Shown here one piece after another: positions 17,179-28,714 of a stretch of DNA of 36,960 nucleotides (position 1 is the stretch's first letter; every line of letters begins with the position of its first letter). The translations under genes were made by a program, and so were the position numbers. A model generated the notes under the pieces. It was not told the origin of the DNA. It was given only the letters and a program-made list of their open reading frames with translations, and made no database searches. This DNA is from Candidatus Dojkabacteria bacterium (GTDB lineage Bacteria; Patescibacteriota; Dojkabacteria; SC72), in NCBI GenBank assembly GCA_012513575.1, contig JAAZBX010000015.1:1-36960 (forward strand), given 5' to 3'.

Positions 17179-18237
17179 ATGGAATTAGAATTTAAAGAAA
17201 TAGAAGACAATCAAGTTTGGGATAACTATGTTTTTCAAATGCCTGAATATTCCTTTTTAAATAGTAGTGCAAGATATGAATATAATAAAAAGATTGGTAT
17301 AGAGACATTTAGATATGCAATATTTAATGGAGATATATTTAGAGGAGTTCTTACAGGAAATATTGGGTCATCAAAACTTTTTGGAAGATTTCTTGAATTT
17401 AAACATTCCCCACTTTTGATTGGGTTTGAGGAAGAAGAATGGAAACAGGTAATTAAGTTTGCGATGCAATATACTATTGATAGAAAATGTTTTATGTTTA
17501 GATTCTCTCCTTTGGTTGTAGAAGATCCTAGGATTGAGGAAATATATAAAAAATATCATTTTATTAAAGCACCTATTCACAATGTTGACGCTCTTATCTC
17601 CCAGCAGATAGATTTAACAAAAAATATTGAGGATCTAAAAAAAGATATGAGTAAAACGAGGAGAAATCTTCTCAACAGATTGTTAGAGAATAATGATGTT
17701 TCAGTAAAAATTCATAAAGACAAGAGTGCTTTTGTCCCTTTTGAGAAATTTCATGATGAAACGGTTAATTTTAAGGGTTATGTAGATAAACCTACAAAAC
17801 TACTCATGCAGGAGCTAGAAATACAGCAAGAGAAAAATATGTGCTATATGGTTACAGCCTATTATAAAGGGGAGCCTTTCTCTATTTGGCAAAATACTGT
17901 TTACGGAGAGAATATGCATCTATATCAAGCAGGAGCTTCAACTGATTTTAGGTTAAAGAATCTTATTGTTACTACTTTGCTTTATTGGAAAAGCTTAGAA
18001 TTAGGTCAGAGTCTTGGATTAAAGAAATACGATTTGTTTGGTGGGGTAGTTCCTGATATGTACGAGAACAAGAGACATCCCTGGAGAGGTGTAAGTGAGT
18101 TTAAGAGAAGTTTAGGCGGTAGAAAGGTCACATATATGCACAGTAGAGATTACCCTATTAACAAAGTAAAATATTTCGCTTATTACATATATTCTACACT
18201 TAGAACTCGTCTCAAAGGACATACCACAAATTGGTAA
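17179..18237 (+). CDS. FemAB-like (GNAT fold) aminoacyltransferase
   Basis: The 352-aa protein matches the FemAB family: MSKTRRNLLNRLLENNDVSV resembles the basic helix region before the second GNAT domain, and the C-terminal domain has HLYQAGASTDFRLKNLIVTT and KKYDLFGGVVPD ... GVSEFKRSLGG. FemAB/FmhB-type enzymes add amino acids from aminoacyl-tRNA to lipid II for peptidoglycan cross-bridges; related proteins act on other envelope substrates. It sits 16 nt after the DegT aminotransferase and ends 1 nt from the convergent RecJ-like gene. Family strong, substrate unknown. Confidence 0.85.
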   Translation: MELEFKEIEDNQVWDNYVFQMPEYSFLNSSARYEYNKKIGIETFRYAIFNGDIFRGVLTGNIGSSKLFGRFLEFKHSPLLIGFEEEEWKQVIKFAMQYTIDRKCFMFRFSPLVVEDPRIEEIYKKYHFIKAPIHNVDALISQQIDLTKNIEDLKKDMSKTRRNLLNRLLENNDVSVKIHKDKSAFVPFEKFHDETVNFKGYVDKPTKLLMQELEIQQEKNMCYMVTAYYKGEPFSIWQNTVYGENMHLYQAGASTDFRLKNLIVTTLLYWKSLELGQSLGLKKYDLFGGVVPDMYENKRHPWRGVSEFKRSLGGRKVTYMHSRDYPINKVKYFAYYIYSTLRTRLKGHTTNW

Positions 18238-18238
18238 T

Positions 18239-21200
18239 TTACTTCAATTGAGTACGTTTGATTGAAATAATTTTTTCAATATCTAATGTGGGCCTTGATT
18301 TCTGTCCATCAATACTTGTAACGTCTCCCTCGTTTATGAAAGGCCCTCTATATATTAACTTTGCAGGTGGCATAGGTGTTAAGCGCATAATAGGTTGTAC
18401 CCTTAAGGATACTGTGTCTCCAATTCTAACTTTATCAAAAGAAATTAATTTCTTAAATAATCTCATTACTCTTCTATTTCCTCTTCTATCTTCAACAGTG
18501 ATAGTTTGGTAAGACTCTCCATCAACTTTTTTGCCTCTTGATTTTCCAACGACCTTAAGTTCTTCAAACTCTAAGAGAAGTTTTGGAAAATCTGTACCAT
18601 ATGGATTAGTTTGTTGAGAGATGTGGGTGGAAATAATGTCAGCTACTGCAAACGGATTTAGATAATTGAAGGATTTGATAAGTTCAGGAGAAGATTTTTT
18701 TAATTCATTTTTTAACTCTTTTATTGTAGTTTCAATTTTTACAACCCCTGCATCAGGGTTAATTGGTTTATACTTCTCAAATAATGGGTCCAAAACATTA
18801 TGTAATTGTTCAATACCACCCTGAACTTGCCAAGTTCCCCCCGAGGCTAGTGGATGACCACCATGTGCAATTATTTTTATTCCAGGTTGAGGATTCTTTT
18901 CTAAGTACAATTGAATCATGTCTGTAGATACATTCCCTCTAGCAGGAAGCCTAAATGATACACTGTAAGTCTTTGAGTCATTCTCCTTACTCTCTCCCTC
19001 TGCAACTATAACCATTGTAGGCTTCTCATATCTTTCCGATATATTTCCAGCAATTAGTCCCCTTTGTCCCTGTAGTGCATCAATATACTCTAGACCTTTT
19101 TGCTCTATGATTATTAAAGGCCTTTCTCTTTCATCTTCGTGTGTATCTAGGTATTTATAGTGTTCTGCAAGAAGTTCCTCTCTTCTTTGTATAGCCTTGT
19201 CTTGCGCATAAGGAAGAGTGTGGCGGTGTCTTCTAATTTTGTTTGTCTCAGATTTTTTAATAAATACATCACTAATTTCGGGTAATACGCTGTCAGCTCT
19301 TAGAGCTTCTTCTGGTTTTGCTCTTCTGTAGATAGCGTTAGTTGAAGCCGCCATAATATGAGAAAAGAATCTAGAATTATAATAGTTTACGGCTGTGAAA
19401 TTTGTTTCTCGAAGTGCAATTCGGATGAACCTTAGACTTTCAGGTAATATCCTTTTAAATTGTCTCTCTCTCCATGTATTTGAAGGCTCTTTTTGGTATT
19501 GTTTTGATAGATCTGTGAGTTCCCTCATGGCGTCCTTTACAATATATCTATTTTCCATACCAATCCCAATTCCAATGGAACCACCATCACCTATTGTTGC
19601 TGTAGCCTCCAAAAGTTTTAATTGCTGAAGTCCGAATGGTCCATGTTTCAAGTACGATTTTAGAGCAAAGCTTTCATTTACAGTTAATTCTTTGCTGTCT
19701 TCCATTGATGAATAGCATAAATTCCAAATTTCGTTCCCAAGTTTTCTTGCTTTCTCTCTTCTTTTCTTGTTGTATTTTTTTGAATTTGGAATAAGCCTGT
19801 CATCTTCAAACAAAGGGGGTTGAAATGCTCCTTGGTTTATACTTGAAGGAGTAGAGAGATGAGCTTCTATAATATTAAAAAGTTCTTTTTTTACATCTCT
19901 AACATGTTTACCAAGTGTAATCCAAGAGTGAATCGCATCAGAGAGAGGTGTTTCTCCTTTATTTGCAATTCTCGAAGAAACCAAATCCTCGTCAATATAT
20001 TCAGCCAATTTGATAATTTTTTCTCTTGCCCATATCTCTTTTGATTTGGTGTCCATCTCAAAAAAAGATTTTGGCATATTTCCACTTTGTTCCAAAACAA
20101 ATCTTTGTTCCTCTAAACTTAATGAATCAAAATCCTTGTCAAGGTATTTTTTTAGCAATTTCTCTCGTTTTTCTTTTGATTGGAGAAGATACTCCTTGCT
20201 TCTGGCTTTAACTATTGGTTCATCACTAAAAAGGTTCATCACCCTTCTAATTACCTTTCCTGTGGTTACAGTACCTACTAAGTCTGATTCAGGGTAGCAT
20301 CTATATTTTCTTTGAGTCCTATCAATTTTTTCGTGATCCACAACACCGTTTTCATCAGGTGTTAAGGCTTCCTGCATCTCGTTGATAAAGTCAATTTCTT
20401 TCCACCATTTCATTACCCATTGTGGATTTACCATTATATCTTGAGAATGTTCAAGAAAATATTCAATCGATTTAATTGAAGGTGTGTGATGGTCACAAAC
20501 GATTAACCTTACATCATTTTTAAAACCATTTACAAACATCCTTAGTGGTTCGTAGGAGCCTAATGTAGATGTACTTTCGATATTGTTAACAGGATTTACA
20601 AATGTGAATTTTCTAGAAAATAAGCCTTCCTTATTGAAAGTATCCCAAGGATTATTTGTAATAAAAAGTTGTAATCTCCTTTTAATCGATTTTTTTTGTT
20701 CTTCGGGAAATTTTGCAAACCCATTTATTCTTTCAATATTATCTAAGAAATATTGAAGATCCGAAATCTTGTTTGTACCAGAATGGAATGTTTGAAAAGC
20801 TTTGCAATCTTCATCGCTTGAACCTGTATCACAAATTATTATTAATTTATTACCTGCAACACCAAGATTAATTAAATCCGTTAACTGTACAGAATGGCCT
20901 TCAATTCTAGTATTAAATTTTTGGTCAACTTTCGGGACACCTATTTTTTCTAGAGCCCACCTCATGTTGTTAGTAGCATTAAATCCATCTTGGTCACAAT
21001 CTGCGATAGTGGCGATTTTTTCACCCTTAATAATTGCACCATAAATTATTTCAGCGGCTTCTTCTACATTTTGAAGTGCACTCGGAGGTTGAAGATTCTT
21101 TTCAGTTGGAAACATTAACTCATTAAAATGCTCTTTTGACGAGATACCTAGGGATTCATAATATTTGGAGAGAATTAAATTTGCAGAATATCCTTCAATT

Positions 21201-22906
21201 ACATTTAAATCCCTTGTAGGACCGTATATTTCGTATGACAATTTCAAATCCGGGTCTTTAAGTTTATCAAAATCAAGAGCTTCCCTTTTGGGAACTTGGG
21301 GTCTTTGAAGAATTCCGTTAAAACAAGGAGTTTCTAGAACATCTGCAAGCTTTCTTATTTCTGTACCTTTTTCGTTATAAGGACTAATGGTTACATCCTT
21401 CAATGTATCCAAATCGAGTCTAAACTTCCATTCGGGTCTAACACACCCAAGTTTACGTGGAGTGACAATATTAATTAATATTGACTCGTCTAATTGTTCT
21501 TGCAAGGCCAATATCGCATTGTATTCATCTTCAGAGAGATTATCTAGGTAGAGTGGACTTGTATTATTTTCTAACCTAGTGATTAAGCCGTTAATTAAAT
21601 TAACATACGAAAGGTTAAGACCTTTTTTGTGAGTTCTTTGTAGATCGGAAAGGTATTTATTAAGTTTATTTATCGAAGTATCTCTTTCAATTAAGTCGGC
21701 GATAAAGGACAAATTACTTATTGATTCTTTTTCTTCTTTGGTTAGTTCGTCTTGTGGGGTACTTCCTCTTCCTGTTACAATTCTTTCAGAAATATTCTTT
21801 ATATTCTGTAAATCTTCCTCGGAAAGAAGTGAAATCCAAGAAACATCTATAGCTTTTGCTTTATCAATAATAGACAATGCTTCTTTGGATACTTCTCTTC
21901 GATATTCTAAGATATATTTGTTGGAGAGATTAGAGTAGAGTGCTGGTGCATGTCTTATTAATTCTGCAGAGGGAGTGTTTGCCTGATAAGAAAAATATGC
22001 AAGTCTAATAAGTTCATTTAATTCTTCTTGCGAGACAACATTTTGATCTTCGCTAAGATTATCATTTTCTATTCTCTTCTTTTTTTCTTCAATTAGTATT
22101 TGGAGAACATCCGCAGCATCAACAGCTACCTGTGTGTGCTCAAACCAGTGACTAGCAATGGACATGGGTATTTGAGACAAGCCACCTTGGGAAGCGGGTA
22201 TTTTATGTTGATCATTCTCATTTAGGTATGTAGCTTCACTATCATTTAAAGCAACAATTCTTTCACCTTGAATAATTGCTTCCTCAGGTTCAATTCCAAG
22301 TTTTTTTGCCATTATCTCAGCAGTAATTCTTTCAATATCACCATCATCTAATCGTCTTCCCCCAACCCATTTGCTTTCATCAATCCATCTCTCACCCGTA
22401 ACAAATTGTAAAACCTTTCCTAGGTTCGCAAGTTGATTCATTGTTGGGATTCCAGAAGTAAATAGCAATTTATGAACAGCAAATTCCAATGCTTTATCAT
22501 ATGAACTCCTATTTAATCCTTCTGTTCTACTTTCTCTTTGGTTGTATGGAACAATTTTTCCTAATACTACAGGAGGATCAAAGAGTAAATCTTTTTTTAA
22601 TGTTCGTTCTCTTTCTTTTATTTTCTTCTCAGACCAATATTTGCTTACATCCTTTTGAGTAAATAGATATCGATTCTCTGTAACTAGCTCTTGTGTTGTT
22701 TTTAGTACATCACGGTAATTTCTTCCTGTAGGAGAAACAAAACCATCAAAGATCTCATTTTTTAAAGAAATTATATTTGAGATTTCTTCTTTCTCTTCAT
22801 CAGTAGTATCTCGGACAAAAAAATTACTATACCTTGGTGACAAACTTTCTTTAATATCTAGTGCTGGATCTATTGTGTAATTCTCTACATCTGAAGTTTT
22901 ATTCAT
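18239..22906 (-). CDS. giant DHH/RecJ-like single-strand exonuclease with ~600-aa N-terminal extension
   Basis: The 1555-aa protein contains RecJ-type DHH motifs in order: ATIADCDQDGFNAT near residue 634, IIICDTGSSDED near 694, VCDHHTPS near 804, and a DHHA1-type GGHPLASGGTW near 1350. A beta-rich, OB-like tail follows (about 1430-1555). RecJ degrades 5'-ended single-stranded DNA in recombination and mismatch repair. Ordinary RecJ is roughly 550-800 aa. This one has about 600 residues ahead of the DHH domain, mostly predicted helical and matching nothing I recognise, and about 500 residues between the DHH and DHHA1 motifs. The conserved Asp and His residues argue for a working nuclease. The upstream region holds a terminator hairpin and a TATAGT box 8 nt before the ATG. 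Confidence 0.75.
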   Translation of the reverse strand: MNKTSDVENYTIDPALDIKESLSPRYSNFFVRDTTDEEKEEISNIISLKNEIFDGFVSPTGRNYRDVLKTTQELVTENRYLFTQKDVSKYWSEKKIKERERTLKKDLLFDPPVVLGKIVPYNQRESRTEGLNRSSYDKALEFAVHKLLFTSGIPTMNQLANLGKVLQFVTGERWIDESKWVGGRRLDDGDIERITAEIMAKKLGIEPEEAIIQGERIVALNDSEATYLNENDQHKIPASQGGLSQIPMSIASHWFEHTQVAVDAADVLQILIEEKKKRIENDNLSEDQNVVSQEELNELIRLAYFSYQANTPSAELIRHAPALYSNLSNKYILEYRREVSKEALSIIDKAKAIDVSWISLLSEEDLQNIKNISERIVTGRGSTPQDELTKEEKESISNLSFIADLIERDTSINKLNKYLSDLQRTHKKGLNLSYVNLINGLITRLENNTSPLYLDNLSEDEYNAILALQEQLDESILINIVTPRKLGCVRPEWKFRLDLDTLKDVTISPYNEKGTEIRKLADVLETPCFNGILQRPQVPKREALDFDKLKDPDLKLSYEIYGPTRDLNVIEGYSANLILSKYYESLGISSKEHFNELMFPTEKNLQPPSALQNVEEAAEIIYGAIIKGEKIATIADCDQDGFNATNNMRWALEKIGVPKVDQKFNTRIEGHSVQLTDLINLGVAGNKLIIICDTGSSDEDCKAFQTFHSGTNKISDLQYFLDNIERINGFAKFPEEQKKSIKRRLQLFITNNPWDTFNKEGLFSRKFTFVNPVNNIESTSTLGSYEPLRMFVNGFKNDVRLIVCDHHTPSIKSIEYFLEHSQDIMVNPQWVMKWWKEIDFINEMQEALTPDENGVVDHEKIDRTQRKYRCYPESDLVGTVTTGKVIRRVMNLFSDEPIVKARSKEYLLQSKEKREKLLKKYLDKDFDSLSLEEQRFVLEQSGNMPKSFFEMDTKSKEIWAREKIIKLAEYIDEDLVSSRIANKGETPLSDAIHSWITLGKHVRDVKKELFNIIEAHLSTPSSINQGAFQPPLFEDDRLIPNSKKYNKKRREKARKLGNEIWNLCYSSMEDSKELTVNESFALKSYLKHGPFGLQQLKLLEATATIGDGGSIGIGIGMENRYIVKDAMRELTDLSKQYQKEPSNTWRERQFKRILPESLRFIRIALRETNFTAVNYYNSRFFSHIMAASTNAIYRRAKPEEALRADSVLPEISDVFIKKSETNKIRRHRHTLPYAQDKAIQRREELLAEHYKYLDTHEDERERPLIIIEQKGLEYIDALQGQRGLIAGNISERYEKPTMVIVAEGESKENDSKTYSVSFRLPARGNVSTDMIQLYLEKNPQPGIKIIAHGGHPLASGGTWQVQGGIEQLHNVLDPLFEKYKPINPDAGVVKIETTIKELKNELKKSSPELIKSFNYLNPFAVADIISTHISQQTNPYGTDFPKLLLEFEELKVVGKSRGKKVDGESYQTITVEDRRGNRRVMRLFKKLISFDKVRIGDTVSLRVQPIMRLTPMPPAKLIYRGPFINEGDVTSIDGQKSRPTLDIEKIISIKRTQLK

Positions 22907-22914
22907 TACTTTGT

Positions 22915-22920
22915 ACTATA
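22915..22920 (-). promoter_or_regulatory. possible -10 box (TATAGT) of the RecJ-like gene
   Basis: TATAGT lies 8 nt before the ATG at 22906 and just downstream of the minus-strand terminator. If active, the gene has its own leaderless promoter and the terminator belongs to a separate upstream RNA. Confidence 0.4.
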
Positions 22921-22922
22921 AA

Positions 22923-22950
22923 ATAAAAAAAGGGACTTGATAAAAGCCCT
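22923..22950 (-). terminator. factor-independent terminator
   Basis: On the minus strand AGGGCTT-TTATC-AAGTCCCT forms a 7-bp stem with one bulged T, followed by TTTTTTTATTTT. There is no open reading frame between it and the promoter at 23067-23095. Confidence 0.75.
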
Positions 22951-23060
22951 ATAAGATTTAATAAGTTGAAATTTTTTAATCTTGTTCAATTCCTGCACTT
23001 TGTGTATAAAGGTTGTTAAATCAAGACTTTTGAGATTTGTGATCTATATAAACCCCAACT
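22923..23060 (-). ncRNA. candidate ~140-nt small RNA or attenuated leader
   Basis: The segment is bounded by a near-consensus promoter and a terminator, and contains no plausible ORF. The transcript could be a free small RNA or a leader that controls the RecJ-like gene. Possible alternative pairings are visible: GATTTAA with TTAAATC further on, AGTCTTG with CAAGATT, and CTTGAT with ATCAAG of the terminator 3' arm. The last would break the terminator. I do not recognise a known RNA family. Confidence 0.5.
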
Positions 23061-23066
23061 AGTTTT

Positions 23067-23095
23067 AGTGTACCCTTTTGGATATATAGTGTCAA
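23067..23095 (-). promoter_or_regulatory. sigma70-type promoter TTGACA-N17-TACACT
   Basis: Minus strand: a perfect -35 TTGACA (23090-23095), exactly 17 nt, then TACACT (23067-23072). Predicted start is near 23060. It is one of the two best promoters in the window and no gene begins immediately downstream of it. Confidence 0.8.
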
Positions 23096-23113
23096 GAAAA
23101 TTGTAAATTTTTT

Positions 23114-24004
23114 TTATTGAGTATAAATAACATCAATACAAGGCGGAATTCCGAGCCTAAATGGCAACCCAGTATTGCCGATTCCTGACGAAACATATAC
23201 TTTCCCTCTCGGCGTATTGTAAAGACCCTGATTAAAACCGTATTTACTTGGAATGAACCATTTATATATTAAAGGGATTCTAATTTGACCTCCATGTGTA
23301 TGTCCAGAGAGTGTTAATTGGGGGATTGATTTGTCATATTTGTAAACCGTATCTGGTGAATGTGCAATTACAACGAGATTATCATCTTTAGAAAATTGGC
23401 TGATTTTAGAAACATCTGCATCCCCAGCCCAGAGGTCTCCAAGTCCAACTATGTACAGATTGAGTTCTTCAATATATTCCGAATTGTTTTTAAGAAAATA
23501 AAAATTAAAGTCAGAGACAATTGCTTTTATCTCTTCTTCATAATTGTTTCTATTTCTTTCACTGTCATGGTTCCCTAGAACAAGATAGACAGGATATTTT
23601 AGATTTTTAAGTGGAGAGAGAAGTGTTCGCAAATCTCCCTTGGGGTGATAGACAATATCTCCAGCAATGACTACAAAATCAACATTATCAATGCTATTTA
23701 TTTCTTCTATAACCTTTACAAGCATTTTAGTAGAAGAAAAGGCTCCAACATGAAGGTCTGATATTAATACAATTTTTGATTTAAAACCTGTTTCAATATT
23801 CGTTTCTTTTTGAATGACAGTATTAGGCTCAAGGAATCGAGAGTAAATTAATAAAAGAGAAAAAAGGATAAGAAATATTTGGAATAAAACGGATTTCCAT
23901 TTGTTAACAAAAAGCACGCTTTTAATTTTTAGATAAATAGCAAGGAGAAGAGGTAAGAAGGGGATTAAAATACTAATGTAGTTAAGCAGATAATATAAAT
24001 TCAT
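23114..24004 (-). CDS. membrane-anchored metallophosphoesterase (YaeI/YkuE-like)
   Basis: The 296-aa protein has two N-terminal membrane helices (about residues 8-28 and 38-56) and then a calcineurin-type phosphoesterase domain with all metal motifs: ISDLHVGAF, VVIAGDIVYHP, LVLGNHDSE, VIAHSPD, and LSGHTHGGQIRIP. Relatives include YkuE and YaeI, which are membrane-associated phosphodiesterases; the substrate here is not evident. The gene starts 48 nt downstream of tRNA-Pro on the same strand, so it may be read from the tRNA promoter. Confidence 0.88.
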   Translation of the reverse strand: MNLYYLLNYISILIPFLPLLLAIYLKIKSVLFVNKWKSVLFQIFLILFSLLLIYSRFLEPNTVIQKETNIETGFKSKIVLISDLHVGAFSSTKMLVKVIEEINSIDNVDFVVIAGDIVYHPKGDLRTLLSPLKNLKYPVYLVLGNHDSERNRNNYEEEIKAIVSDFNFYFLKNNSEYIEELNLYIVGLGDLWAGDADVSKISQFSKDDNLVVIAHSPDTVYKYDKSIPQLTLSGHTHGGQIRIPLIYKWFIPSKYGFNQGLYNTPRGKVYVSSGIGNTGLPFRLGIPPCIDVIYTQ

Positions 24005-24051
24005 GGGTCAGTTAATAAAATATGAACAAATTATAACATTCAAGAGGAAAG

Positions 24052-24125
24052 TCGGGGAGACAGGACTTGAACCTGCGACCTCTGCGTCCCAAACGCAGCG
24101 TTCTAGCCATCTGAACTACTCCCCG
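24052..24125 (-). tRNA. tRNA-Pro (anticodon TGG)
   Basis: The minus strand gives acceptor CGGGGAG/CTCCCCG with discriminator A, anticodon stem CTGCG/CGCAG enclosing TTTGGGA (anticodon TGG), and T arm GCAGG-TTCAAGT-CCTGT (last pair G-T). No CCA is encoded. Confidence 0.93.
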
Positions 24126-24135
24126 AATCAGAGTA

Positions 24136-24144
24136 ATTCTATCA
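24136..24144 (-). promoter_or_regulatory. extended -10 promoter (TGATAGAAT) of tRNA-Pro
   Basis: TGATAGAAT lies 10 nt upstream of the tRNA 5' end on the minus strand, just downstream of the terminator at 24151-24178. No clear -35 is visible. Confidence 0.5.
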
Positions 24145-24150
24145 TATCAG

Positions 24151-24178
24151 AAAGAAAAAGGGGAGTAAGTACTCCCCT
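24151..24178 (-). terminator. terminator of the DUF4870-like gene
   Basis: AGGGGAGT-loop-ACTCCCCT, an 8-bp perfect stem with a 4-nt loop, followed on the minus strand by TTTTCTTT. It lies 24 nt after the stop of the 112-aa gene and isolates it from tRNA-Pro. Confidence 0.8.
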
Positions 24179-24201
24179 TAAACATAACCAAAGGTTAAAA
24201 A

Positions 24202-24540
24202 CTAGTTAAACCAACCCATAACCTTTAATGCCAAATCAGAGATCAATGGAATATCAAATCTTTCTCCTTGGGAAGATTTAACTATTCCTACAATGATAAG
24301 AATCAATGTTACTGGGGCAATTAGCCAACCAATCAATGGAACCCAGGCGATCATTTCGAGTAATCCTAAAATAGAAGACTGTGCACCATTGTATTTAACA
24401 AAATTGTCATCTTTCTCTACTAGAAGAAGAATAAATCCAACAATAGGAATCCAGGCGAGAATTGCAGTAGCCTTGTTTACCTCATTGTACTTAATCTCGT
24501 TCAAGGAATAGACCTTTTTTGCAGCCTTAGTTTCTGCCAT
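24202..24540 (-). CDS. DUF4870/Tic20-like small membrane protein
   Basis: The 112-aa protein has three hydrophobic segments: residues 27-41 (ILAWIPIVGFILLLV), 57-70 and 72-90. The signature NFVKYNGAQSSILGLL and the closing GERFDIPLISDLALK are typical of DUF4870 membrane proteins, whose function is unknown. It has its own terminator and a TATACT box at 24570-24575 that would give a leader of about 22 nt without any Shine-Dalgarno sequence. Confidence 0.7.
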   Translation of the reverse strand: MAETKAAKKVYSLNEIKYNEVNKATAILAWIPIVGFILLLVEKDDNFVKYNGAQSSILGLLEMIAWVPLIGWLIAPVTLILIIVGIVKSSQGERFDIPLISDLALKVMGWFN

Positions 24541-24569
24541 TTTAAAAGAAAATTTAATTTAACAACATA

Positions 24570-24575
24570 AGTATA
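24570..24575 (-). promoter_or_regulatory. possible -10 box (TATACT) of the DUF4870-like gene
   Basis: TATACT on the minus strand, 29 nt before the ATG, in the intergenic space shared with the divergent lexA gene. Confidence 0.35.
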
Positions 24576-24616
24576 TTATTTAAAAATTTGGAACGCAATA
24601 GCAACACTATAAGAAC

Positions 24617-24651
24617 TTGAAGGTATACAATGGGGTGGTATACTGGTATAT
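24617..24651 (+). promoter_or_regulatory. lexA promoter with repeated GGTATAC motif, candidate operator
   Basis: TTGAAG (24617-24622), 16 nt, then TGG-TATACT (24636-24644) forms an extended -10 promoter. GGTATAC occurs at 24622-24628 and 24637-24643, with a near copy GGTATAT at 24645-24651. TATAC-TG-GTATA is an inverted repeat overlapping the -10. Placement over the promoter of a repressor gene suggests a LexA autoregulatory operator, but the motif is not a standard SOS box I know. Confidence 0.45.
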
Positions 24652-24672
24652 ATAATTTAATTTCATATATAA

Positions 24673-25323
24673 ATGGATATTAGATTAACAGCTAAACAGG
24701 AAGAGGTATTAAGGATTATAAGGAACTTTTATTTAGAAAAAGGTTTTGCCCCATCTCTTAATGAGTTAAAGGATGTTCTTGGAATTTCTACTAAAAGAGG
24801 TGTAGTAATACATCTGATTGCCCTTGAGAAGAAAGGTTATATTTTTAGAACTGGACAGGCTAGAGGTATCCATTTGGTTGGAAATGATGAAGAAATAGCT
24901 TACGATTATCTTGTTGGAGTTCCGATATTAGGATATGCAAATGCAGGAACTCCTTTAGTTGCAGCGCAGGAGGAAAATATTGGGATATTAAAGATAGATA
25001 AAAATATTCTGAGGCAAAAAACAAATATTTTTAGTCTAATTATTAAAGGAGATTCTATGAATCAAGCAGTAATTGGGGGAGAAAAACTTCAAGATGGAAA
25101 ATATATTATAGTTCAAAAGGATTCAGAGATAGAAGATGGGGATATTGTTGTTGCAATTATTGATAATTGTGCCACTGTAAAAAGATTTAAAAAGGGTAAA
25201 AATATGGTTATTCTTTATCCCGATTCCGACAATCCACTTTTTCAACCTATTTATTTGGATAGTAACAGTGATTCTTTGATTAATGGGAAGGTAATTCAAA
25301 TATTGGAAAACCCAACTATCTAA
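24673..25323 (+). CDS. lexA: LexA repressor
   Basis: The 216-aa SOS repressor has an N-terminal winged helix-turn-helix (GFAPSLNELKDVLGISTKRG, then LEKKGYIFR). The C-terminal S24 latent protease contains the self-cleavage pair Ala91-Gly92 (GYANAGTP), the nucleophile Ser128 (KGDSMNQ) and the general-base Lys170 (ATVKRF). All key residues for RecA-stimulated self-cleavage are present. Length is slightly above the usual ~200 because of a longer stretch between Ser and Lys. The start follows a promoter with repeated GGTATAC motifs. Its stop overlaps the convergent nrdG stop by 8 nt. Confidence 0.93.
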   Translation: MDIRLTAKQEEVLRIIRNFYLEKGFAPSLNELKDVLGISTKRGVVIHLIALEKKGYIFRTGQARGIHLVGNDEEIAYDYLVGVPILGYANAGTPLVAAQEENIGILKIDKNILRQKTNIFSLIIKGDSMNQAVIGGEKLQDGKYIIVQKDSEIEDGDIVVAIIDNCATVKRFKKGKNMVILYPDSDNPLFQPIYLDSNSDSLINGKVIQILENPTI

Positions 25324-26163: not shown

Positions 26164-28251
26164 TTAACTAATTTCATTAAAGGACATTCCTTCTTTATAT
26201 CCCACCTCACAGTCACACTTAGGACAGTAAAAGTGTTCACCTGGGATATATCCGTGCTTTGGACATATACTAAATGTTGGAGTGATTGAGAAGTAGGGCA
26301 ATTTATAATTCTCTGCAATTTTTCTCACTAGATTTTTTACTGCCTCAGGAGATGTAATTTGTTCTCCAATGTAAACGTGTTGAACAGTACCGCCTGTGTA
26401 AAGACACTGAAATTCATCTTGTAAATCTAATGCTTCAAAGATGTCATCAGTCAGTCCAACAGGAATCTGTGAACTGTTTGTATAGTATGGCACTATATCC
26501 CGGCCTTTATGTTCGCCTATGTCAGACGCTGCTATAATTGAATCTCCAAAGCGCTTCTTATCTGCCTTTGCAAACTTATAAGTTGCTCCTTCTCCAGGTG
26601 TTGCTTCCAAATTAAAAAGTTCATTGGTTTTTAATTGATAAGTCATCAATCGTTCTCTCATGTGATTCATTATCTCAATACCAAATTCTCGGCCTTCTTC
26701 TGAAGTAATCCCCTTATTTGAATCTTTGTAGAAGTTTATAAGTGCCTCATTGAGTCCTAATATTCCAATTGTGTTAAAATGATTTTTGTAGTACTCTCCG
26801 AACCTCTTTTTAATATCAGATAAGTAGAATTTGGAATATGGATAAAGACCTTTATCCATATATTTCTCAAGGAATCTCCTTTTAATTTGCAAGCTCTTCT
26901 TTGCTAAATCCATCTGAATATTTAACCTTTTAAAAAAGTCTCTTTTGTTTGCTGCTTCGAAACCAATTCTGGGAAGATTAATTGTTACTACACCAATACT
27001 ACCAGTTAATGGGTTGGCGCCAAACAAACCGCCACCTCTTTTTCTAAGCTCCCTGTTATCAAGTCTCAATCTGCAGCACATACTTCTTGCATCGTCAGGA
27101 CTCATGTCAGAATTTATAAAGTTTGAAAAATAAGGGATACCATATTTGGCTGTCATCTCCCAGATAGGTTTGTACTCAGGATTGTCCCAATCAAAGTCCT
27201 TTGTGAGATTGTAGGTAGGAATAGGGTAGGAAAACAGTCGTCCCTGTGCATCTCCTTCCATCATAATTTCACAAAAGGCCTTATTAATCATATTCATTTC
27301 ATTCTGAAATTCACAGTATTTCTCTTTTTGTATTTGACCCCCAATAATCACCCCCTGCTGTGCAAGTTGTCCCGAAGGAATTAAATCCATAGTAATATTA
27401 GTGAAAGGTGTTTGACAACCAACCCTAGTTGGAACATTCATATTGTAAAGAAACTCTTGCATTTTCTGTTTAACCTGTTTGTAGGATAGTTTGTCAAACT
27501 TAACAAAAGGAGCAAGAAATGTATCGAAGCTTGAAAAAGCTTGAGCTCCTGCCGCTTCATGTTGAAGTGTGTAAAGGTAATTTACGACTTGCCCTAATGC
27601 TGCACTAAAATGCTTTGCTGGGGAAGAAGAGATCTTTCCTTCAACGCCTGTAAAACCCTTAAGAAGCAAATCTTCTAAACTCCAACCGCAACAGTATGTT
27701 GCCAACATCCCTAAGTCATGAATATGATAATCTTTATTAATATTTCCGGTAGAAATTTCTTTTGGATATATGCTGTGAAGCCAGTAATTTGATTGGACAG
27801 TAGTTGAAATATAGTTATTTAAACCTTGCCAAGAATAAGCCATATTACTGTTCTCATTAACTTGCCAATCAAGTTTGTCGATATAGTCTTTAACAAGCGT
27901 GTTCGCATCGATTAACGATTTAATATTCTTAACCTGGTGTTTGAGATCAATAAAGAGTTTGTACGCAATTGAGGTTTTAGTATGTCCCATGTCAATTAGT
28001 GTCTGAGCAACAATATCCGCAATTTCGCTACTCTTAATTACTTCCTTATTAGAATATTTACTCTTAATAATCTTTATTACTTCTTCAGCTATCTCTTCTG
28101 CTCTTTTCTTATTTTTACCACCAACACTATCAGCGGCCTTAAAAATACCTCGAACAATACTATCTTTACGAAAAGCAACTAAACTTCCATCTCTCTTTTT
28201 AACCTTTAATTTTTTACTAATAGGTATTTGAATTTTATTTGGGGCAGACAT
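26164..28251 (-). CDS. nrdD: anaerobic (class III) ribonucleoside-triphosphate reductase, large part
   Basis: This is the catalytic part of the oxygen-independent enzyme that makes dNTPs. An ATP-cone is N-terminal (KVKKRDGSLVAFRKDSIVRG, residues about 15-105 of the chosen start). The finger-loop barrel includes RVGCQTPFTNITMD and LFGANPLTGSIGVVTINLPR. The C-terminus is the zinc ribbon CPKHGYIPGEHFYCPKC. The chain then stops at GMSFNEIS, before the glycyl-radical segment, which is supplied by the next ORF. The track start is a TTG at 28278 inside nrdR; I prefer ATG 28251 (MSAPNKIQ, 695 aa), 16 nt after the nrdR stop. The operon is nrdR-nrdD-radical ORF-nrdG. Confidence 0.92.
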   Translation of the reverse strand: MSAPNKIQIPISKKLKVKKRDGSLVAFRKDSIVRGIFKAADSVGGKNKKRAEEIAEEVIKIIKSKYSNKEVIKSSEIADIVAQTLIDMGHTKTSIAYKLFIDLKHQVKNIKSLIDANTLVKDYIDKLDWQVNENSNMAYSWQGLNNYISTTVQSNYWLHSIYPKEISTGNINKDYHIHDLGMLATYCCGWSLEDLLLKGFTGVEGKISSSPAKHFSAALGQVVNYLYTLQHEAAGAQAFSSFDTFLAPFVKFDKLSYKQVKQKMQEFLYNMNVPTRVGCQTPFTNITMDLIPSGQLAQQGVIIGGQIQKEKYCEFQNEMNMINKAFCEIMMEGDAQGRLFSYPIPTYNLTKDFDWDNPEYKPIWEMTAKYGIPYFSNFINSDMSPDDARSMCCRLRLDNRELRKRGGGLFGANPLTGSIGVVTINLPRIGFEAANKRDFFKRLNIQMDLAKKSLQIKRRFLEKYMDKGLYPYSKFYLSDIKKRFGEYYKNHFNTIGILGLNEALINFYKDSNKGITSEEGREFGIEIMNHMRERLMTYQLKTNELFNLEATPGEGATYKFAKADKKRFGDSIIAASDIGEHKGRDIVPYYTNSSQIPVGLTDDIFEALDLQDEFQCLYTGGTVQHVYIGEQITSPEAVKNLVRKIAENYKLPYFSITPTFSICPKHGYIPGEHFYCPKCDCEVGYKEGMSFNEIS

Positions 28252-28267
28252 ATTTGTAAAATTTAAA

Positions 28268-28714
28268 TTAATTCTCAATACTATCTATTTCCTTTCTTAC
28301 ATCTTCTAAAGTCTCAAATTTCTTATAGACCGAAGCGAACCGAATATACGCCAATTTATCCTTTCCTTTAAGCCAATCTAAAGTTTTTAAGCCAATTTCA
28401 TTTGTTGAGAGAGGCTCTTCACTATTTAGAGCGATTCTCTCAATTTCTTCAGCAAAATCCCTAATCTCTTCCTCCTTTACATGCTCATGATTTAAAGCTT
28501 TTTTTATCCCTTTCACAATTTTCTCTGAATCAAATTTCTCTAAAGAGCCATCTTTTTTTATTACATTCACTTCTAGGCTTTCCAATCTCTCGTAGGTAGT
28601 AAAACGTTTCCCACATCTTAGACATTGTCTTCTTCTTCGTGTTGACCTGTCTTCATTATTGTCCCTTTTATCTACTACCTTTGTAATCTCACATTCACAA
28701 AAAGGGCATTTCAT
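28268..28714 (-). CDS. nrdR: transcriptional repressor NrdR
   Basis: The 148-aa protein has an N-terminal zinc ribbon (CPFC at residues 3-6 and CLRC, with the basic RSTRRRRQ stretch between) and an ATP-cone (VNVIKKDGSLEKFDSEKIVKG). Both are standard for NrdR, which senses adenine nucleotides and represses ribonucleotide reductase genes. It heads the nrd operon it should control. A palindrome resembling the NrdR box lies 11 bp before its ATG, so autoregulation is likely. Confidence 0.93.
   Translation of the reverse strand: MKCPFCECEITKVVDKRDNNEDRSTRRRRQCLRCGKRFTTYERLESLEVNVIKKDGSLEKFDSEKIVKGIKKALNHEHVKEEEIRDFAEEIERIALNSEEPLSTNEIGLKTLDWLKGKDKLAYIRFASVYKKFETLEDVRKEIDSIEN

Follow-up and report, generated by a model that had tools for sequence, protein, structure and literature searches.

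What is the predicted RNA whose promoter and terminator lie immediately before a giant RecJ-like gene of the Dojkabacteria: a small-RNA gene of its own, a leader that controls the gene behind it, or a chance product of its neighbours? The window, by which we mean the whole 36,960-nt stretch of DNA analysed here, is contig C22 of a genome that totals 716 kb in 24 contigs. On its minus strand, a promoter, a predicted untranslated RNA and an intrinsic terminator follow one another and lead up to the start codon of the giant gene (Table 1). Direct reading of the leader stretch revealed no ATG-started open reading frame.

Table 1. Features of the promoter–leader–terminator unit and of the adjoining gene in the window.
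Feature	Position	Strand	Remarks
-35 element TTGACA	23095-23090	minus	6/6 to consensus, read from sequence; CTTGACA in 5/5 homologues
-10 element TACACT	23072-23067	minus	4/6 to consensus; spacer to TTGACA = 17 nt
Predicted untranslated RNA, ~135 nt	22925..23060	minus	start inferred ~7 nt past the -10 element
Conserved RNA core (AAATCTCAAAAGTCTTGATTTAACA...ACAAAGTGCAG.AATTGAACAAGATT)	22970..23037	minus	59/68 identical to L121
Hairpin P1 (predicted)	23031..23057	minus	arms 23057-23050 with 23038-23031; window/L121 lineage only
Hairpin P2 (predicted)	22978..23028	minus	arms 23028-23016 with 22989-22978, one bulged A; window/L121 lineage only
Intrinsic terminator	22925..22949	minus	hairpin GGGCTT-TTATC-AAGTCC at 22949-22933, then T7 at 22931-22925
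Possible separate leaderless-promoter -10, TATAGT	22920-22915	minus	8 nt 5' of the giant-gene ATG
Giant-gene ATG	22906-22904	minus	18 nt past the T tract
Giant RecJ/DHH-related gene, 1555 aa	18239..22906	minus	full-length homologues 42-83% identical

A promoter, predicted RNA and terminator conserved before the giant gene

Taken singly, the unit in the window is barely above chance and constitutes weak evidence; it is the comparison with homologues that makes the case. Scanning 7 kb with a plain consensus returned 28 promoter-like sites, against 28.6 expected from shuffles, and 5 terminator-like sites, against 3.5 expected. For the stricter TTGACA-N17-TAnnnT, the whole genome has 27 sites, compared with 9 for the reversed control. 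Most of these 27 strict promoters lie 5–115 nt 5' of an ORF; the one before the giant gene lies at 160 nt. The chance of a promoter of the kind shared by the giant genes in a given 90-nt stretch of shuffled upstream sequence is about 0.2%, and among 153 ORFs scanned in the family only seven have a terminator-like hairpin within 90 nt upstream, three of them giant-gene homologues. Searching the leader against Rfam at gathering and permissive thresholds gave no match, and a DNA search of 145 related genomes gave short (16–50 nt), chance-level matches only.

Five giant-gene loci were compared: the window's own, L121, G008, G025 (and G030) and G031. The homologous contigs of Candidatus Dojkabacteria UBA4813, UBA2222, UBA3081 and UBA2177 belong to the same family as the window. 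A further one, L121 (JAMNZA010000075.1), is filed under a 'Euryarchaeota' MAG; a 9-kb stretch of it runs collinear with the window, at 78% identity, so it was probably misbinned. All five loci contain the exact heptamer CTTGACA, a TAnnnT -10 element (TATTCT, TATTCT, TATGCT and TACACT in the four homologues), a leader of 110–120 nt, and a GGG..CCC hairpin with a T-run, followed by an ATG about 17–50 nt further on. Counted from the -10 element, the leader measures 110–117 nt in the four homologues. The hairpin begins with AGGG and is followed by a T-rich tract in every case. Its bases have changed between loci with pairing kept, from C-G to U-A in the fourth pair and from G-U to G-C in the third. 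The promoter–terminator unit that the sequence-only reading had placed before the RecJ-like gene is thus present in 5/5 homologues, and the layout, its conservation and its tie to the RecJ-like gene are shown by this comparison.

The genes upstream of the unit differ. A divergently oriented LemA gene precedes it in G025 and G031, an SLT-domain-like gene in G008, and a metallophosphoesterase gene in both the window and L121. Since the unit is kept beside differing neighbours, it belongs to the giant gene. The neighbours also bear on the highly improbable explanation that the terminator is the 3' end of the metallophosphoesterase gene and the promoter a chance match. That gene is co-directional in the window, its stop codon lies 18 nt before the -35 element, and no other terminator follows it. 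However, the unit stands beside divergent LemA in G025 and G031, so there the terminator is not the 3' end of another gene and serves the leader promoter only, and in G008 it stands beside an unrelated gene. Metallophosphoesterase genes of the same genus without the giant gene have no such tail: in G001, G005 and G006, only about 17–25 bp separate the ends of the FemAB and metallophosphoesterase genes, with no RNA. We therefore rejected this explanation on the strength of the loci with divergent neighbours.

A covariance model built from the window and L121 and run on the family returned convincing hits in these two only. The RNA and the giant gene always co-occur, and the RNA was never found without the gene. 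The unit was accordingly misnamed an orphan at the outset, whereas the initial choice between an attenuated leader and a small RNA was well posed for a conserved unit tied to a RecJ-like gene.

Several further features were seen at this and related loci and elsewhere in the genome. The stretch from FemAB to tRNA-Pro/DUF4870/lexA (window 17179–25323, and L101–L106, L113, L116, L039 and L040) is a variable region, occupied by LemA plus DUF2207, by a metallophosphoesterase gene, by the giant gene in one orientation or the other, or by different content. Upstream of lexA, an inverted repeat of the type GTATACC...GGTATAC (L039, L040 and window ~24613–24672) is a candidate LexA operator of the family. 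In L039 (95–3940), a LAGLIDADG intein interrupts the anaerobic ribonucleotide reductase gene, whereas the homologous gene of the window (26164–28278) is shorter and has no such insert. Finally, at L150 ~1530–1790 (C24:12881–13140 of the window's genome, plus strand), a TTGACA-N17-TATACT promoter is followed by two long stem-loops, each with a T run after it; a further strict promoter then stands in front of a 422-aa ORF. This stretch, which has no match in Rfam, is a candidate for one or more unannotated non-coding RNAs.

The giant protein and its distribution

The giant protein contains DHH motifs (ADCDQDG, CDTGSS and VCDHH) and a DHHA1 motif (GGHPLASGG), which it shares with the RecJ single-strand exonuclease. 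Unlike RecJ, it is about three times longer, and its match to TIGR00644 (recJ; 9.7e-23, 80.2 bits) falls far below the equivalog cut-off of 396.9. A PHROG RecJ-like profile matches at 3.6e-20, and the DHH and DHHA1 profiles match below threshold. RecJ similarity lies at residues ~578–700 and in a second matched stretch; for the N-terminal ~570 residues no match was found, and AlphaFold modelling of residues 1–578 gave a confidence (mean pLDDT 52.6) too low for use. A PDB sequence search returned nothing significant, and no defence family matched the protein. A second RecJ-like ORF in the window's genome (C15, 565 aa) has the normal length.

Full-length homologues range from L121, at 83% protein identity, to more distant ones at 42–44%. 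In the scan of genome contigs, a single-sequence query found no relatives and an alignment query found five. The giant gene is accessory and patchy: it is present in 5 of the 32 family genomes (the window's, G008, G025, G030 and G031), outside the family it was found neither in the class (86 genomes) nor in a 380-genome sample of the phylum, and no relatives were found among IMG/VR viral contigs or phage and plasmid records. The contigs that carry it in G025 (C6) and G030 (C24) look identical over the compared region, and the two genomes are assigned to different genera, which suggests cross-binning of one contig.

Constraint and predicted folding of the RNA

Between the window and L121, the promoter is 93% identical, the core (23037–22970) 87% and the whole RNA 78%, compared with 56% at third codon positions of the giant gene; the binomial P for the core against third codon positions is 4e-8. 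Judged by these substitutions, the leader is under constraint, with purifying selection on its core in this lineage. The constraint is not exceptional: elsewhere in the locus, intergenic stretches reach about 80% identity as well. Downstream of the -10 element, homology to the G008 leader was detected for the window (0/500 shuffles) and for L121 (4/500). The similarity between the G008 and G031 leaders is weak (12/500), and none was detected by the shuffle test between the leaders of the window and G031.

The predicted fold shared by the window and L121 has a consensus energy of -15.8, compared with -7.7 ± 2.8 for controls with an equal number of random substitutions. As good a value was reached by 1/500 controls for the whole RNA and 3/500 for the core; without the terminator the result is weaker (17/500). 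In P1, changes that keep pairing are one-sided only, and P2 is invariant between the two sequences and hence offers no covariation. In the comparison with relatives that the sequence-only reading had called for, conservation was found, and a double compensatory change was found at no pair between the window and L121. The G031/G025 leader pair showed no fold conservation relative to random-substitution controls. In a consensus fold over the five leaders, the terminator hairpin alone is common to all, the P1/P2 fold being confined to the window and L121.

Conservation also bears on whether the leader encodes a short peptide that controls the giant gene by translational coupling, for which we see next to no likelihood. 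A GTG-started frame of 30 codons crosses the terminator and runs to a TAA overlapping the giant ATG. Frames end on that ATG both in the window (TAATG) and in L121 (ATGA), with a 3-nt in-frame deletion between the two. Against this, the differences between the two in the GTG frame alter the amino acid, the frame closes before the gene in G025, G031 and G008, and it has no SD. Lacking both synonymous-type substitutions and conservation, the leader peptide was rejected; the GTG frame is probably there by chance.

The switch proposed initially, in which CTTGAT pairs with ATCAAG and opens the terminator, fared poorly. L121, the closest homologue (83% protein identity), retains CTTGAT, but its terminator loop reads TTTTCTAGT and the partner is lost. 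More generally, none of the five leaders has an anti-terminator better than those of 300 shuffles, and when the terminator 5' arm was made to pair with upstream sequence, no leader reached a better energy than its shuffles. The leaders of G025 and G031 have less structure than their shuffles. Their UAG/CTAG repeats, which raised the idea of a TRAP-like mechanism, are not shared by the window and L121, and the idea was dropped. Within each close pair, the terminator 5' arm and its upstream flank are unchanged (16/16 nt between the window and L121) and the loop and 3' arm drift; this hints at a second partner for the 5' arm, two pairs being too few to claim one.

Possible control of the giant gene and comparison with known systems

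We favour, with a probability of roughly 0.55, the interpretation that the unit is a 5' leader of the premature-termination (attenuator) type that travels with the giant RecJ-like gene. RNA polymerase would start at the consensus promoter, transcribe some 135 untranslated nucleotides and in most cases be released by the intrinsic terminator immediately ahead of the start codon. Read-through transcripts would then be the main source of giant-gene mRNA and the only ones from which the protein is expressed. Control could be a constant throttle, or could be exerted by a protein or an antisense RNA acting on the nascent RNA. Attenuators that work as RNA switches need an alternative anti-terminator fold, whereas protein- or antisense-mediated antitermination would not show one. 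The lack of a detectable, mutually exclusive anti-terminator therefore favours a throttle or protein/antisense control over a classical two-state RNA switch. Should the leader indeed act as a throttle, producing the giant protein is probably costly or dangerous, which would be a hint as to the role of this accessory protein.

Apart from the lack of an anti-terminator better than shuffles, the low structure of the G025 and G031 leaders and the similar identity of neighbouring intergenic stretches, two further observations count against an attenuator. One is the leader fold, which appears to be confined to the window and L121. The other is the transcription context of the family: SD-like sites precede only 7/103 ORFs, and -10-like hexamers peak 5–9, 12–16 and 26–31 nt before the ATG. 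This combination suggests that leaderless or short-leader mRNAs are common in this Dojkabacteria family, among which an untranslated leader of 150 nt would be unusual; the same statistics offer a yardstick for recognizing unusually long leaders in Dojkabacteria. Longer leaders do exist in the window's genome, for example one in which 115 nt lie between a strict promoter and an ORF assigned by eye as rpoB-like. That leader (L129, on contig C1) contains a terminator-like hairpin, AGGTC-TTTTGC-GACCT, followed by T, and its ORF is possibly another leader-controlled gene.

The same context lends some weight to the unlikely but serious alternative of a separate small-RNA gene, in which a free RNA of ~135 nt acts in trans or regulates the giant gene by base pairing, and the giant gene is transcribed independently, without a leader, from TATAGT. 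The RNA has a strong promoter and terminator of its own, the promoter is farther from the ORF than most strict promoters are from theirs, and the fold is conserved between the window and L121. The TATAGT hexamer, 8 nt before the ATG, fits the 5–9-nt peak. The possible -10 element that the sequence-only reading ascribed to the giant gene is not kept in L121, which reads AACAGT at that position, and by direct reading the gene-proximal -10 is not clear-cut in G025, G031 and G008. The giant gene may, in addition, be served by a leaderless promoter of its own. That the RNA was never found apart from the giant gene counts against a small-RNA gene.

We also considered that the short RNA is a partner of the DHH protein, binding it as an antitoxin (inhibitor), cofactor or guide, with the terminator keeping RNA in excess over protein, so that RNA and giant nuclease would form a two-part system confined to Dojkabacteria. 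We regard this as doubtful. In type III toxin–antitoxin loci (ToxIN, CptIN and TenpIN), a promoter, a non-coding RNA, a Rho-independent terminator and a protein gene follow one another (PMC5086642), and the giant-gene locus shares this order, with a nuclease-like protein in last place. The constant company of RNA and gene and the patchy distribution, with two of the five carriers having apparently the same contig, agree with such a partnership. In contrast to type III loci, the leaders contain no tandem repeats, and the protein is a 1555-aa DHH member rather than of the ToxN, CptN or TenpN type, with DHH/DHHA1/RecJ similarity alone and no defence-family match. In addition, no conserved RNA fold was found across homologues, although their proteins are 42–44% identical.

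The closest parallel to the premature-termination leader that we favour is found among bacterial leaders of that class. Terminators conserved 5' of orthologous genes are a footprint by which attenuators can be found (Naville and Gautheret 2010, PMC2965389), and the giant gene has an intrinsic terminator on the same strand between promoter and start codon, conserved before its orthologues in 5/5 loci. With these leaders it shares the promoter, the untranslated leader, the terminator directly before the ORF, and conservation before orthologues while the leader sequence evolves fast. It differs in having neither a detectable alternative anti-terminator fold nor a known sensor class, in belonging to a clade where SD sites are few and leaders mostly short, and in preceding a giant DHH protein; neither Rfam nor the literature searched contained a regulatory leader for this kind of gene. 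A second parallel is with the 'mobile attenuators' of insertion sequences (PMC2965389). Although the giant-gene unit includes a strong promoter of its own ahead of the terminator and the gene is not a transposase, here too an accessory gene comes with a terminator that could prevent read-through once the gene has inserted.
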